NCBI RefSeq assembly: GCF_014596445.1
Contig: NZ_MECL01000227.1
Span: 1 to 64,000 of the forward strand
Reading direction: 5' to 3'
From: Streptomyces sp. CBMA29
GTDB taxonomy: Bacteria > Actinomycetota > Actinomycetes > Streptomycetales > Streptomycetaceae
DNA: 64,000 nucleotides
Position numbers and translations under genes: made by a program. Positions 16,356 to 20,951 of this stretch are shown piece after piece. Below the pieces are notes generated by a model, which saw only the letters and a list, made by a program, of their open reading frames with translations, was not told where the DNA came from and did not search any database. Within the stretch, counting starts at the first letter, position 1. Every line of letters begins with the position of its first letter.

Positions 16356-17819
16356 TCAGGCCGGGGCGCTCACGTACATCCGGGAGATGACCTCGGGCAG
16401 CAGGCGTTCTGTGAGGCGCGGGGGCAGGGCTTGGAGGACGGCGAGGACGGGGGCCATGCGGTCGGGCAGCGCGCCGCCGGGGCCGACGCCCGCGAGCTGG
16501 AGGGCGAGCGCCACCTCGTCGGGGCCGAGGGCGTCCGGGTCGAGCGCGGCGGCCAGTTCCACGAGTCCGGGGTCGACGACGGTCGGGCCGTACGCGCGGG
16601 CCCTGGTCACGGCGTCGGCCAGGTGGGCGAGGAGTTCGTCGATCCGGTCCGGGTCCGCGACGGCGGCGGTGACCGTGAGGTGCACATTGGACGGCGAGCC
16701 GCCGAAGGCCGGCTGCGGCTGGAGGTACCAGCCGAGCAGCCGCATCTCGTCCGCGACCACGAACGGGTCGAGCGCCGGGTCCGCGGAGGCGACGGCCACC
16801 AGCGACGCCTCGGGGGCGCCGAGCACCCGCAGCCCGTCGATCCGGCCGATCCCCTCGACCAGCCGTACGGTCGCCGCGTGCACGCGCCGGGACAGGTCGG
16901 TGTACCCGTCGGCGCCGACCCTGCGCAGCACCGCCCAGGCGGCGGCCAGCGGCCCGGCGGACTTGGTGCCCTGCAAGGTCGCGTTGACGACCGGGTAGCC
17001 CGGCCAGGAGGCGTGCGCGAACCAGCCGTGCCTGCGCAGTTCCGCGTCCCGGAAGAGCAGCACGGAGGCTCCCTTGGGCGTGTAGCCGTACTTGTGCAGG
17101 TCGACCGAGAGCGAGGTGACGCCGGGCACCGCGAGGTCGAAGGCGGGCGGCGGCGGGGTGTCGTCGGCCAGCCGCCGGTGCGCCAGGTACCAGCCGCCGA
17201 TGCAGGCGTCCACGTGGCACAGCGTGCCGCGTTCCGCGGCGGCCCGCGCCACCTCGGCGACCGGGTCGAGCACGCCGTGCGCGTAGGAGGGCGCGGAGAC
17301 GACGACGAGGGCGGTACGGGGGCCGATGACGGCTGTCATGTCCTCGGCCCGCACCCGGAAGGTCTCCGGGTCCACGGGGACGCTCACGACGGTGAGCCCG
17401 AAGAGCGCGGCGGCCTTGTGGAAGGCGGCGTGCGCGGTGACGGGGAGCACGATCTCGGGCGCGGTGACGCCGCGCGTCCTGCGGGCGTGCTCGCGGGCGG
17501 TGAGGACGGCCAGCAGGCAGCTCTCGGTGCCGCCGCTGGTGAAGGTGCCCGCCGTCCGCGGGCCGCCGCCGAGCACGGCCGCCGCCCGCCCCACGACGTC
17601 GTTCTCCAGCGCGACCACGCTGGGGAAGGCGGTCATGTCGAGGCCGTTGACGCCCGCGAAGGCGGCCTGGGCGCTCGCCGCGAGATCGTCGAGCCCGTCG
17701 AGTCCCGCGTCGTAGACGTACGCCATCGTGCGTCCGCCGTGCACGGGCAGGTCGGCGGCGCGCAGTCCGGCGAGGTGCTTCAGGATCGCGTCGTCGGTCC
17801 GGTCGTCCGTTTCGTCCAT
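16356..17819 (-). CDS. PLP-dependent group II decarboxylase / sphingosine-1-phosphate-lyase-like protein
   Basis: This 487-residue fold-type I PLP enzyme resembles the glutamate decarboxylase and sphingosine-1-phosphate lyase group. Visible landmarks are GTFTSGGTESCLLAVL (phosphate cup, near residue 95) and His130 in PVTAHAAFHKA. HVDACIGGWY contains Asp203, and SVDLHKYGYTPKG contains the Schiff-base lysine Lys243. The HKYGYTPKG form is characteristic of the lyase/tyrosine-decarboxylase-like branch. The substrate cannot be told: an amino acid decarboxylase or a phospho-amino-alcohol lyase both fit. It stands alone between bldD and nusB, flanked by terminators. A -10 box lies so close to the ATG that the mRNA may be leaderless. 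Possibly an insertion in this conserved block. Confidence 0.85.
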   Translation of the reverse strand: MDETDDRTDDAILKHLAGLRAADLPVHGGRTMAYVYDAGLDGLDDLAASAQAAFAGVNGLDMTAFPSVVALENDVVGRAAAVLGGGPRTAGTFTSGGTESCLLAVLTAREHARRTRGVTAPEIVLPVTAHAAFHKAAALFGLTVVSVPVDPETFRVRAEDMTAVIGPRTALVVVSAPSYAHGVLDPVAEVARAAAERGTLCHVDACIGGWYLAHRRLADDTPPPPAFDLAVPGVTSLSVDLHKYGYTPKGASVLLFRDAELRRHGWFAHASWPGYPVVNATLQGTKSAGPLAAAWAVLRRVGADGYTDLSRRVHAATVRLVEGIGRIDGLRVLGAPEASLVAVASADPALDPFVVADEMRLLGWYLQPQPAFGGSPSNVHLTVTAAVADPDRIDELLAHLADAVTRARAYGPTVVDPGLVELAAALDPDALGPDEVALALQLAGVGPGGALPDRMAPVLAVLQALPPRLTERLLPEVISRMYVSAPA

Positions 17820-17935: not shown

Positions 17936-18361
17936 CTACCGCTTGAGCGTCGGCTTCAGTTCCATCAGCCGGGCCAGCAGCCCGTTGACGAAGGCCGGCG
18001 ACTCGTCGGTGGAGAACTCCTTGGCGAGCTGCACCGCCTCGTCCAGCACGACCGCGTCCGGGACGTCGTCCTCCCAGAGCAGCTCGTACGTGCCGAGCCG
18101 CAGCACATTGCGGTCCACGACCGGCATCCGGTCGAGCGACCAGCCGACGGAGTAGCTGGACAGCAGTTCGTCGATCCGCTCGGCGTGCGCCTCACAGCCC
18201 TCGACGAGCCGCATCGTGTACTCGGTGACCGGCGGCTGCCGGTCGTCGGTCCTGGCGAGCCGGATCCAGTCCGCCATGGCGGTCTTGGGGTCGACGCCCC
18301 GCTGTTCCGCCTCGAAGAGGATCTGGAAGGCCCGCTTGCGGGCCTTGTTCCGGGCAGCCAC
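17936..18361 (-). CDS. nusB: Transcription antitermination factor NusB
   Basis: NusB binds boxA RNA with S10 (NusE) and supports antitermination of rRNA operons. The 141-residue protein shows the all-helical family pattern: ARNKARKRAFQILFEAEQRG at the start, LSSYSVGWSLDRMPVVDRNV, and the C-terminal AVQLAKEFSTDESPAFVNGL. It lies 2 bp downstream of efp and is clearly co-transcribed with it. The efp-nusB pairing is widespread in bacteria. Length is normal. Confidence 0.97.
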   Translation of the reverse strand: MAARNKARKRAFQILFEAEQRGVDPKTAMADWIRLARTDDRQPPVTEYTMRLVEGCEAHAERIDELLSSYSVGWSLDRMPVVDRNVLRLGTYELLWEDDVPDAVVLDEAVQLAKEFSTDESPAFVNGLLARLMELKPTLKR

Positions 18362-18363
18362 GG

Positions 18364-18930
18364 TTAGCTGTTCACCCGGCCGAGGTAGTCGCCCGTACGG
18401 GTGTCGACCTTGACCTTCTCACCCGTGGTGATGAAGAGCGGGACGCCGATCTCGTAACCGGTCTCCAGGCGGGCGGGCTTGGAGCCGCCGGTGGAGCGGT
18501 CGCCCTGGACGCCGGGCTCGGTGTACTCGATGACCAGCTCGACGGAGGCGGGCAGCTCGACGTAGAGCGCGGAGCCCTCGTACATCGCCACGACCGCCTC
18601 GAAGCCCTCGAGCAGGTAGTTGGCGGCGTCGCCGACCGTCTCGGGCGCGATGATGATCTGGTCGTAGGTCTCGGTGTCCATGAAGACGAAGTCGGTGCCG
18701 TCCTTGTAGGAGAACTGCATGCCGCGCTTGTCGACGTTGGCGGTCTCGACCTTCACGCCCGCGTTGAAGGTCTTGTCGACGACCTTCCCGGAGAGCACGT
18801 GCTTCAGCTTGGTGCGCACGAAGGCGGGGCCCTTGCCGGGCTTGACGTGCTGGAACTCGACTACGGTCCAGAGCTGGCCGCTGTCGAGCTTGAGCACGAG
18901 GCCGTTCTTGAGGTCGTTCGTGGTGGCCAC
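18364..18930 (-). CDS. efp: Elongation factor P
   Basis: EF-P relieves ribosome stalling at polyproline. The 188-residue protein starts at the GTG 18928-18930 ([20 protein letters not shown]). It has three beta-barrel domains with the family end GDYLGRVNS. The domain I tip reads [12 protein letters not shown]. The palindromic loop PGKGP with an unmodified lysine (Lys33 here) is the actinobacterial type, shown in Corynebacterium to work without modification. No epmA or epmB-like gene is nearby. It forms a unit with nusB. Confidence 0.97.
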
Positions 18931-18985: not shown

Positions 18986-20089
18986 TCACAGGGCGAGCAG
19001 TTCCTTGGTCGTGATGGTGAGTAGCTCGGGCCCGCCGTCCGCCAGTGGACGTACGACGAGTGTGTCGTCGATGCGGACACCGCCGCGGCCCGGAAGGTGG
19101 ACCCCCGGTTCGACGGTGACCGGCACGCAAGCGTCCAGTTTACCCATGGCCGCAGGTGACAGCCGAGGGTCCTCGTCGATTTCCAGACCCACGCCGTGTC
19201 CCGACCACTGTGCCAGACCCTCCGCGTGGCCGGCGGCGGTCAGCGGGCCGCGGGTCGCGTGGTCGACGTCTCGGCAGGCCACACCGGGTGCGAGCGCCTC
19301 GCGGCCGGCCCGCTGGGCGGCGAATACCAGGTCGTAGAGGTCGATCTGCCAGGCGGCGGGAGCGGTGCCGATGACGAACGTACGGCCGACTTCGCAGCGG
19401 TAGCCGCGGTAGCGGGCGCCGAGCCGGACGGTCAGGAAGTCGCCCTCCTCGACGCGTCGGTCGGTCGGCACGTGCCGGGGCGCGCCGGAGTTCGGCCCGG
19501 TGCCGACGGACGTACGGAAGGCGGGTCCCTCGGCGCCGTGGTCGACCAGGCGGCGCTCCAGCTCCAGGGCGAGGTGCCGTTCGGTGCGGCCGACCAGGAT
19601 CGACTCCAGCAGTTCGCCCAGGGCCTGGTCGGCGATCTCCGCGGCGATCCTGAGGTTGGCGATCTCGTGCTCGTCCTTGACCAGCCGGAGCTGTTCGACG
19701 GCGCCGCCGAGGTCGGACAGCGGGAGCCCGCCGACGACCGAGCCGATCGCGCGGTGCCGGGTCACCGTCAGGTGGTGCTCCTCGACGGCGAGGGAGTCGG
19801 CGTGCTGTTCGCGGGCCAGGTCGGCGGCGGCCACCGCCGCGTCGCCGTCCGGCGTCGCCAGCACCACCGCGCGCAGGTCGCCGGGCAGGGGTTCGTCGCG
19901 GTCGTCCTGCGGCGGGGTGAGGTGCACCAGCGCGTCGTCGTCCGGGCCGATCAGCAGCGCCGCGCCCTGCGGCGCGCAGCCGGTCAGATAGCGGATGTTC
20001 GCGGGACGGGTCACCAGCGCGGCGGACGCGCCGTTCGCCGCGCACCGGTCGCGCAGCCGTGCTCTGCGTGCTGCGTGCACCTCGGACAT
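18986..20089 (-). CDS. M24-family (Xaa-Pro aminopeptidase-like) protein with altered metal site
   Basis: The 367-residue protein has the creatinase N-terminal domain ([12 protein letters not shown]) and the pita-bread M24 domain (from about residue 145, [20 protein letters not shown]). Typical M24 peptidases use Asp-Asp-His-Glu-Glu as metal ligands. Here the first Asp position is Arg222 ([10 protein letters not shown]) and the second is Glu233 (CEVGRTF). His298 ([12 protein letters not shown]) and Glu327 (VEPGVHL) remain, and the last Glu is Asp341 (VRIDDT). Two-metal catalysis is therefore doubtful. The ATG at 20087-20089 is chosen by homology. It lies 55 bp upstream of efp, the same neighbourhood as pepQ-type genes next to efp in Firmicutes. 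Confidence 0.85.
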
Positions 20090-20193: not shown

Positions 20194-20245
20194 CGGGCTA
20201 CCGGACCGGCGGGCTACCGGACCTCGGCGGGCTACCAGATCGGCG
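20194..20245. repeat. Three short direct repeats before the kinase gene end
   Basis: The core GGGCTACC occurs at 20195-20202, 20211-20218 and 20229-20236 with extended similarity around each copy (about 16-18 bp units). The third copy contains the stop codon and last codons of the P-loop kinase gene. Function unknown. The remainder of the 142-bp gap to the M24 gene shows nothing clear. Confidence 0.6.
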
Positions 20246-20951
20246 GCCCCTGGGCGCTGCGGGCCACGACGCGGTCGAGTGCGGCGGCAGCGGAGACCAC
20301 GTCGAGCTGGGAATTGTCGATGATGGGCAGGCCCGAGCCGTACCAGCCCGCCATACGGCCGTGGATCCGGGCGACTTCCTCGTCCGACAGCCGGCGGTTG
20401 CCGGTGCGCTCCGCGTTGCGGGTCAGGACGACGTCGAGTCCCGGGAGCAGGACGACGGGGAGCAGGCCGGGCCCGACGTGCCGCTTCCAGCCGCCGAGGC
20501 CGACGGCGGGTCGGTCGGGGAAGACGGCGTCGTCGATGATGCAGGAGACGCCGTTGGCCAGGAAGTTACGGGCGGCGAAGCCGCAGGTGCGGCGGGCCAG
20601 CCGGTACTGCGCCTCGGAGTGCTCGTTCCACCCCGCCTGCGGGTCGGCGAAACCGGCCCGCACCCATTCGCGTACGTCGTCCAGGCTGATGTGCGCGGTC
20701 GGCGCGCCGCGGTGGTCGGCCCAGTGCCGCGCGATCGTCGTCTTGCCCGCCCCCGCGGCGCCGATCAGCAGCACGGCTATCGGGCCGTGCGAGGCGCCGG
20801 ACAGCGAGCCGTTGCCGTGCGGCGCCGGGACCTGCACGGGCGCGGGCGACGACAGCGGGAAGTGCCCCGTACTGACGCCCGTCCCCTGGGGCGGGGTGGG
20901 GCCACCGGGCTGCGGCGCCCCCACAGCGTGCTGCATCTCGCCCCACTCCAT
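20232..20951 (-). CDS. P-loop ATPase/kinase of the AAA_33 zeta-toxin-like type
   Basis: The 239-residue protein has a Walker A VLLIGAAGAGKTTIARHW near residue 65 and the acidic SLDDVREWVRAGF, typical of small-molecule kinases of the AAA_33 group. A lid region NAERTGNRRLSDEEVARIH follows. The first 50 residues are Pro/Gly-rich and likely disordered. The substrate is unknown. It lies between aroQ and the M24 protein on the same strand, in a place occupied by an ATP-binding protein in other Streptomyces from memory. The start ATG at 20949-20951 is the first in frame; a shorter start within the disordered region is possible. Confidence 0.8.
   Translation of the reverse strand: MEWGEMQHAVGAPQPGGPTPPQGTGVSTGHFPLSSPAPVQVPAPHGNGSLSGASHGPIAVLLIGAAGAGKTTIARHWADHRGAPTAHISLDDVREWVRAGFADPQAGWNEHSEAQYRLARRTCGFAARNFLANGVSCIIDDAVFPDRPAVGLGGWKRHVGPGLLPVVLLPGLDVVLTRNAERTGNRRLSDEEVARIHGRMAGWYGSGLPIIDNSQLDVVSAAAALDRVVARSAQGPPIW

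Follow-up and report, generated by a model that had tools for sequence, protein, structure and literature searches.

A PepQ-like protein encoded beside efp has lost catalytic residues across Streptomyces and close relatives and is probably kept as a binding protein

Introduction

The closest solved relatives of the protein described here are prolidases, that is, Xaa-Pro dipeptidases (PepQ) of family M24B such as 1pv9, 3q6d and 5giu. M24-type folds also serve binding or other chemistry, as in the N-terminal domain of Spt16, itself an M24 pseudoenzyme, and in creatinase, DddP and the ectoine hydrolase DoeA; creatinase works without metal, through a His at the place of H243 in E. coli aminopeptidase P (EcAPP). 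All four have active-site residues of their own, and to our knowledge none shares the residue set of the streptomycete protein.

Other M24 pseudoenzymes have been described in eukaryotes. According to a review table, Ebp1/PA2G4 (M24A) keeps two of its five metal ligands and has no peptidase role, and its homologue in Leishmania is described as a further case. In the published account of PID-5 from C. elegans, a domain related to aminopeptidase P (APP) keeps the fold but has N, Q and G at ligand places, with one His and one Glu remaining. On the bacterial side, a description of Saccharopolyspora gives an operon of pepQ, efp and nusB, then bldD, in which pepQ is taken to encode an Xaa-Pro dipeptidase.

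The streptomycete protein resembles PepQ in fold, length, two-domain layout and efp-adjacent operon place, but lacks three of the five metal ligands and both catalytic His residues, and instead shows strong constraint at residues 151-185. It differs from Ebp1, which is MetAP-like and eukaryotic, in being a bacterial prolidase. It also differs from PID-5, whose APP-related domain sits within a larger Tudor protein and has an active paralogue at its side, because here the orthologue itself has changed throughout a lineage. Since M24 pseudoenzymes are already known, what sets the streptomycete case apart is this lineage-wide conversion, with intact controls at the same locus. A search of open-access literature found no paper on the protein, although earlier notice in subscription papers or MEROPS is possible.

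Results

A prolidase fold with an altered active site

The window analysed here is the whole 64,000-nucleotide stretch of Streptomyces sp. CBMA29 DNA (contig NZ_MECL01000227.1, positions 1 to 64,000). In it, an initial annotation had noticed an M24 peptidase-like gene 55 bp from efp. Its coordinates (Table 1) and the 55-bp gap to the efp start at 18930 are correct; translation places the frame on the minus strand, and the plus strand of the same interval runs into stops. Along the minus strand, an AAA/zeta-toxin-like kinase gene is followed by the M24 gene, efp and then nusB, with bldD beyond a PLP-decarboxylase-like gene. We take the locus tag for the M24 gene to be SCO1492, and a search of open-access literature found no paper under it. 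Published work names SCO1491 as EF-P and SCO1490 as NusB.

Both Creatinase_N and Peptidase_M24 score far above their Pfam cut-offs in the 367-residue protein. The pita-bread fold with its Creatinase_N domain was also recovered by VIA-align, with 3q6d as the best match (Z 28.8, rmsd 5.7, 337 aligned) and the Spt16 N-terminal domain, creatinase, DddP and DoeA among the matches at Z about 24-26. None of the NCBIfam PepQ equivalogs reached its cut-off, the best being an archaeal model (NF040821, 175.8 bits against 630). A structure model built with distant alignment rows reached pLDDT 76.4 and pTM 0.76 and contains helices at residues 140-165 and 173-183; residues 293-302, on the loop that bears H298, and 307-323 were modelled poorly (pLDDT under 50), and a first model was poorer still (pLDDT 66, residues 291-367 under 50). 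With these fold and model scores, the view that the fold is well kept holds, and the protein is presumably folded. By fold, length, two-domain layout and operon place beside efp, the gene is an orthologue of actinobacterial pepQ.

Where solved prolidases such as 1pv9 align with D, D, H, E and E, the five metal ligands of M24B Xaa-Pro peptidases, positions 222, 233, 298, 327 and 341 of the protein read R, E, H, E and D. The initial annotation had made the same assignment, which alignment to 1pv9 and relatives bore out, but it overlooked further changes: both catalytic His residues are replaced (His205 by R, His305 by D), as are H231 by R, H294 by Q and Y331 by H. H206, the neighbour of position 205, is kept. 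Positions were equated with those of EcAPP in Table 1 through alignments. As cited in the PID-5 paper, changes of EcAPP D260 and D271, or of H243, abolish activity, and the equivalents of all three differ in the streptomycete protein. Judged by these residues, the protein would not hydrolyse Xaa-Pro peptides.

Table 1. Positions of the M24 gene, its neighbours and the residues and DNA elements discussed in the text
Feature	Position	Strand	Basis
AAA_33/zeta-toxin-like kinase gene, lying between aroQ (upstream) and the M24 gene	20232-20951	-	
Degenerate PepQ/aminopeptidase-P-like gene (M24B), 367 aa	18986-20089	-	ORF, Pfam, alignment to solved structures
Helix pair at residues 151-185, protein sequence strongly constrained across the degenerate clade	19535-19639	-	conservation, pN/pS; helices in model
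R205 (canonical catalytic His, EcAPP H243 type)	19475-19477	-	alignments
R222 (canonical Asp, EcAPP D260 type)	19424-19426	-	alignments
E233 (canonical Asp, EcAPP D271 type)	19391-19393	-	alignments
H298 (canonical His kept)	19196-19198	-	alignments
Stretch upstream of efp constrained at nucleotide level, with fixed rare codons (codons 301-365)	18995-19189	-	codon choice
D305 (canonical catalytic His, EcAPP H361 type)	19175-19177	-	alignments
TAAACT, invariant TAnnnT hexamer within the gene, probably the -10 of an efp promoter	19137-19142	-	conservation
E327 (canonical Glu kept)	19109-19111	-	alignments
D341 (canonical Glu)	19067-19069	-	alignments
GACAC (WhiA-type motif) at D342-T343, 136 nt upstream of efp start	19062-19066	-	sequence
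efp, elongation factor P	18364-18930	-	domain match
nusB	17936-18361	-	
PLP-dependent decarboxylase-like gene, between nusB and bldD	16356-17819	-	

A lineage-wide change best explained by one loss

Active-site residues were read from 223 distinct efp-linked M24 proteins, of which 66 were intact, 155 degenerate and 2 partial, the last two being left out of the degenerate count. Distinct proteins were counted because some genomes were present in two collections; of 240 efp loci, 42 had no M24 gene in the stretch examined, some of them owing to contig ends. All ligands and both His residues were kept in 66/66 intact proteins and in 0/155 degenerate ones, and no group mixing the two kinds was seen among the 223. 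The intact proteins came from other families of the class (53) and from the same order (13), 7 of the latter belonging to two deep Streptomycetaceae genera (g2 and g5).

The degenerate proteins fall into two halves, and position 222 in the set is mostly Cys, Arg, Val, Ala, Ser or Gly. The first half (119 proteins, including that of CBMA29) comprises Streptomyces, Actinacidiphila, Streptantibioticus and others, and mostly carries C, R or G at 222, E at 233, H at 298, E at 327 and D at 341. The second (36 proteins from genera g3, g4, g11 and g14) has V, A or S at 222 and E at 341, with S, C or A at 233 and G or A at 327 in 36/36. Arg222, which the initial annotation had proposed to follow as possibly fixed in streptomycetes, is no signature of the clade: it occurs in 34/119 and 0/36, and Cys is commonest in the first half (74/119). 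Position 205, which we take to be the equivalent of the creatinase His, is His in 2/119 and 3/36.

A tree of EF-P plus NusB (117 rows) requires one loss, with all 64 degenerate rows in one clade (SH-aLRT 93), and an M24 tree built after removal of 16 active-site columns likewise gives one loss (support 99). In the EF-P plus NusB tree, a protein recorded under Kitasatospora aureofaciens NRRL B-2183 groups with Streptomyces; the name is probably an old one. A single change on both trees argues that catalysis was lost once in an ancestor and that the site drifted differently afterwards. The best explanation of the residue patterns places this loss in the ancestor that Streptomyces and Actinacidiphila share with most other Streptomycetaceae. 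In keeping its fold, losing metal ligands and having the change fixed in a lineage, the protein is like M24 pseudoenzymes such as Ebp1 and PID-5. Intact orthologues, named beforehand as the sign of a local mutation, do exist, but they lie outside the clade, so that the loss is lineage-wide and a local mutation is rejected by the counts above.

Retention of an open frame

Orthologue and frame were scored in 150 family genomes, in part of which the ligands were also read. An orthologue was present in 35/35 genomes of the genus including CBMA29, the 34 others showing 78-92% identity, and, at E<=1e-60, in 149/150 genomes of the family. Among these 149, the gene is split by a frameshift in G096 and G103, cut at a contig end in G134, and a single frame with indels in G043 and G048; the one genome without an orthologue, G065, is a fragmented assembly. 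The two split copies (L164 and L165) could reflect erosion or long-read errors. Four order-level genomes (G153, G157, G158 and G160) lack a close efp-linked orthologue, their sole match (30-32% identity) lying elsewhere; the gene has probably been lost outright in part of a sister family. For CBMA29 itself, the open frame and the orthologues at 78-92% identity reject a sequencing error or pseudogene.

Within-genus dN/dS was 0.17-0.37 in degenerate genera versus 0.10-0.40 in intact ones, as estimated by the Nei-Gojobori method, whose values are inflated by the strong G+C bias of these genomes; the same inflation makes dN/dS of EF-P unreliable. For residues 21-295, median omega was 0.30 in the first half and 0.49 in the second, values raised by saturation of distant pairs and by the lowering of dS through codon bias. 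With the binuclear site lost and the fold kept, these data support the earlier suggestion of selection for something other than Xaa-Pro hydrolysis.

Constraint has shifted to residues 151-185

We compared pairs of proteins matched for overall identity (55-65%). Across 16 active-site and neighbouring columns, 29% of residues were identical in degenerate pairs versus 98% in intact pairs, whereas at residues 151-185 the figures were 90% and 48%. At the level of sequence, this comparison shows that constraint left the active site and moved to the two helices that open the catalytic domain. At 151-185, pN/pS was 0.04 in one degenerate half and 0.07 in the other; near intact relatives had 0.36 and the wider class 0.84. 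Synonymous change continues there (pS 0.37 versus 0.41-0.43 in the flanks in the first half, 0.26 versus 0.37-0.39 in the second), which indicates that the constraint is mainly on protein. Invariant polar residues run along the whole length of these helices, as a contact surface would show. Part of the stretch is already similar in the nearest intact genera, so constraint on it may predate the loss.

The 3' end carries DNA that probably serves efp

Codons 301-360 had codon-choice scores of 0.7-1.3 bits, versus mostly 0.15-0.3 in the rest of the gene; the same codons scored 0.69-0.79 in near intact relatives and were slightly raised in the wider class. Rare codons are fixed over codons 303-360, among them CTA for L356 (118/119), GCT for A320 (116/117), GGT for G316 (118/118) and GAA for E303 (117/119). 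A TAnnnT hexamer at codons 316-318, about 207 nt upstream of the efp start codon, is present in 119/119 and 36/36 proteins of the two degenerate halves, 13/13 near intact relatives and 45/53 of the wider class, the next most frequent aligned TAnnnT position occurring in 45/119. Codon 316 varies in the wider class (n=53: GGT 33, GAT 9, GCT 3, others) while the T-A...T letters are mostly kept. On this conservation, from which the promoter call was made, TAnnnT is probably the -10 hexamer of an efp promoter that was in place before the catalytic loss and in most actinomycete families sampled. A scan with consensus sigma-70 found no promoter, and no good -35 was found for the hexamer.

Published ChIP-seq data from S. 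venezuelae include a WhiA peak 191 bp upstream of efp. In Actinoplanes, a construct with an efp promoter is reported to give medium-strength reporter expression. GACAC or GTGTC occurs 100-230 nt upstream of efp in 155/155, a weak count because D342-T343 yields GACAC almost freely. No RNA structure was seen in the 3' stretch (z -0.62 against column shuffles), and an Rfam match to NiCo was rejected as weak, far below cut-off, on the other strand and elsewhere. Synonymous change is also low at the C-terminal codons. This codon-level constraint means that conservation of residues 321-367 cannot be read as protein function alone, and DNA serving efp partly explains it. Even alone, such embedded DNA would stand in the way of deleting the 3' end.

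No EF-P column was found to change with the loss

We looked for columns that changed with the loss, requiring a state present in at least 95% of the degenerate set, at most 20% of near intact and fewer than 30% of all intact relatives. At these limits no column of EF-P qualified, and in NusB positions 12 and 56 alone did so. Almost all members of the degenerate clade carry the NusB changes (Leu/Val to Phe at 12, Val to Tyr at 56), which no near intact relative has. The order pepQ-efp-nusB is ancestral, and elsewhere its PepQ is, by its residues, an intact enzyme. A proline-related tie to EF-P, suggested at first by the short distance to efp, thus finds no support beyond the old operon. A conserved N-terminal extension of EF-P in the upstream open frame was likewise unsupported, since open-frame lengths vary between genomes.

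Discussion

We consider it probable (about 0.6) that the gene encodes a catalytically dead PepQ, retained in Streptomyces and close relatives as a binding protein. The starting point would have been the ancestral actinobacterial pepQ, encoding an Xaa-Pro dipeptidase in a pepQ-efp-nusB operon. The sequences show that neither catalytic His and only two of five metal ligands remain, with one loss on the tree, and that the frame afterwards stayed open under purifying selection; the gene would thus have been kept as a pseudoenzyme. Its present action, suggested by the constraint, would be to bind a partner through the 151-185 helix pair, while the 3' end of the gene would separately carry DNA for efp expression. 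A newly frozen, putatively exposed stretch in a protein kept intact suggests binding rather than cutting. The chemistry itself could be done by an intact M24 paralogue (L001) in the CBMA29 genome. Several observations count against this reading. EF-P has no column, and NusB only two, that changed with the loss, and the similarity of part of 151-185 in near intact genera may mean that its constraint came first. Gene erosion occurs, as in the frameshifted copies of G096 and G103 and the missing orthologue of G065. Finally, E233, H298, E327 and D341 are jointly retained in 111/119 proteins of the first half, which a useless site would not need.

This joint retention argues for a main rival, an altered enzyme in the Streptomyces/Actinacidiphila half, in which these four residues would hold one metal for another reaction or slow hydrolysis. 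E233 and D341 are D-to-E and E-to-D exchanges at D271- and E406-type positions, the E-H-E-D set stays complete while 222, 205 and 305 vary, and C222, commonest in this half, could be a ligand. The initial annotation had held that an Arg at a metal position excludes the binuclear site; this stands for the usual site, although a single metal might still bind at the four residues. We nonetheless regard the single-metal enzyme as unlikely. Both catalytic His positions are lost, and R222 with R231 could balance the acid cluster without metal. Furthermore, the second half lacks the acids at 233 and 327 yet keeps 151-185 about as strictly, which indicates that metal is not the shared reason for retention of the gene.

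An equally doubtful possibility is that the protein is dispensable and slowly decaying, and that the gene persists through its 3' efp promoter and the transcription feeding efp and nusB. The hexamer, the fixed rare codons, the WhiA peak and the frameshifted copies would all fit. This account extends only to codons about 301-365, however, whereas residues 21-295 and above all 151-185 show constraint on protein, and the entire frame is intact in nearly all genomes.

Somewhat more speculative, and improbable as a whole, is a streptomycete-specific regulatory or translation-linked factor. In this case 151-185 would, once catalysis had gone, have come to dock an important partner (the ribosome, a nascent chain or a developmental regulator of the efp-nusB-bldD region) in an Ebp1-like manner, and the gene would also be a DNA platform for WhiA-controlled efp expression.

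Lastly, as has been suggested for C. elegans PID-5 with APP-1, the protein might join an active M24 paralogue as an inactive subunit or regulate it, a reading that fits the paralogue in CBMA29 and the dimeric or tetrameric aminopeptidase P enzymes, with a modelled heterodimer, described in the PID-5 paper, but that is very unlikely since 10/45 Streptomycetaceae genomes have no second match to this protein at E<=1e-30 and that paralogue is therefore not a steady companion.

On the favoured reading of a catalytically dead PepQ kept for binding, a housekeeping peptidase has become a probable non-enzyme across a whole lineage of much-studied bacteria, for which intact sister enzymes encoded at the same locus serve as controls, and the constraint shift singles out a short, testable stretch, 151-185. 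A family match alone would label such proteins Xaa-Pro peptidases. In addition, expression of actinomycete efp probably depends on DNA within the neighbouring gene; with efp promoter DNA inside it, deletion of the M24 gene would disturb efp as well.
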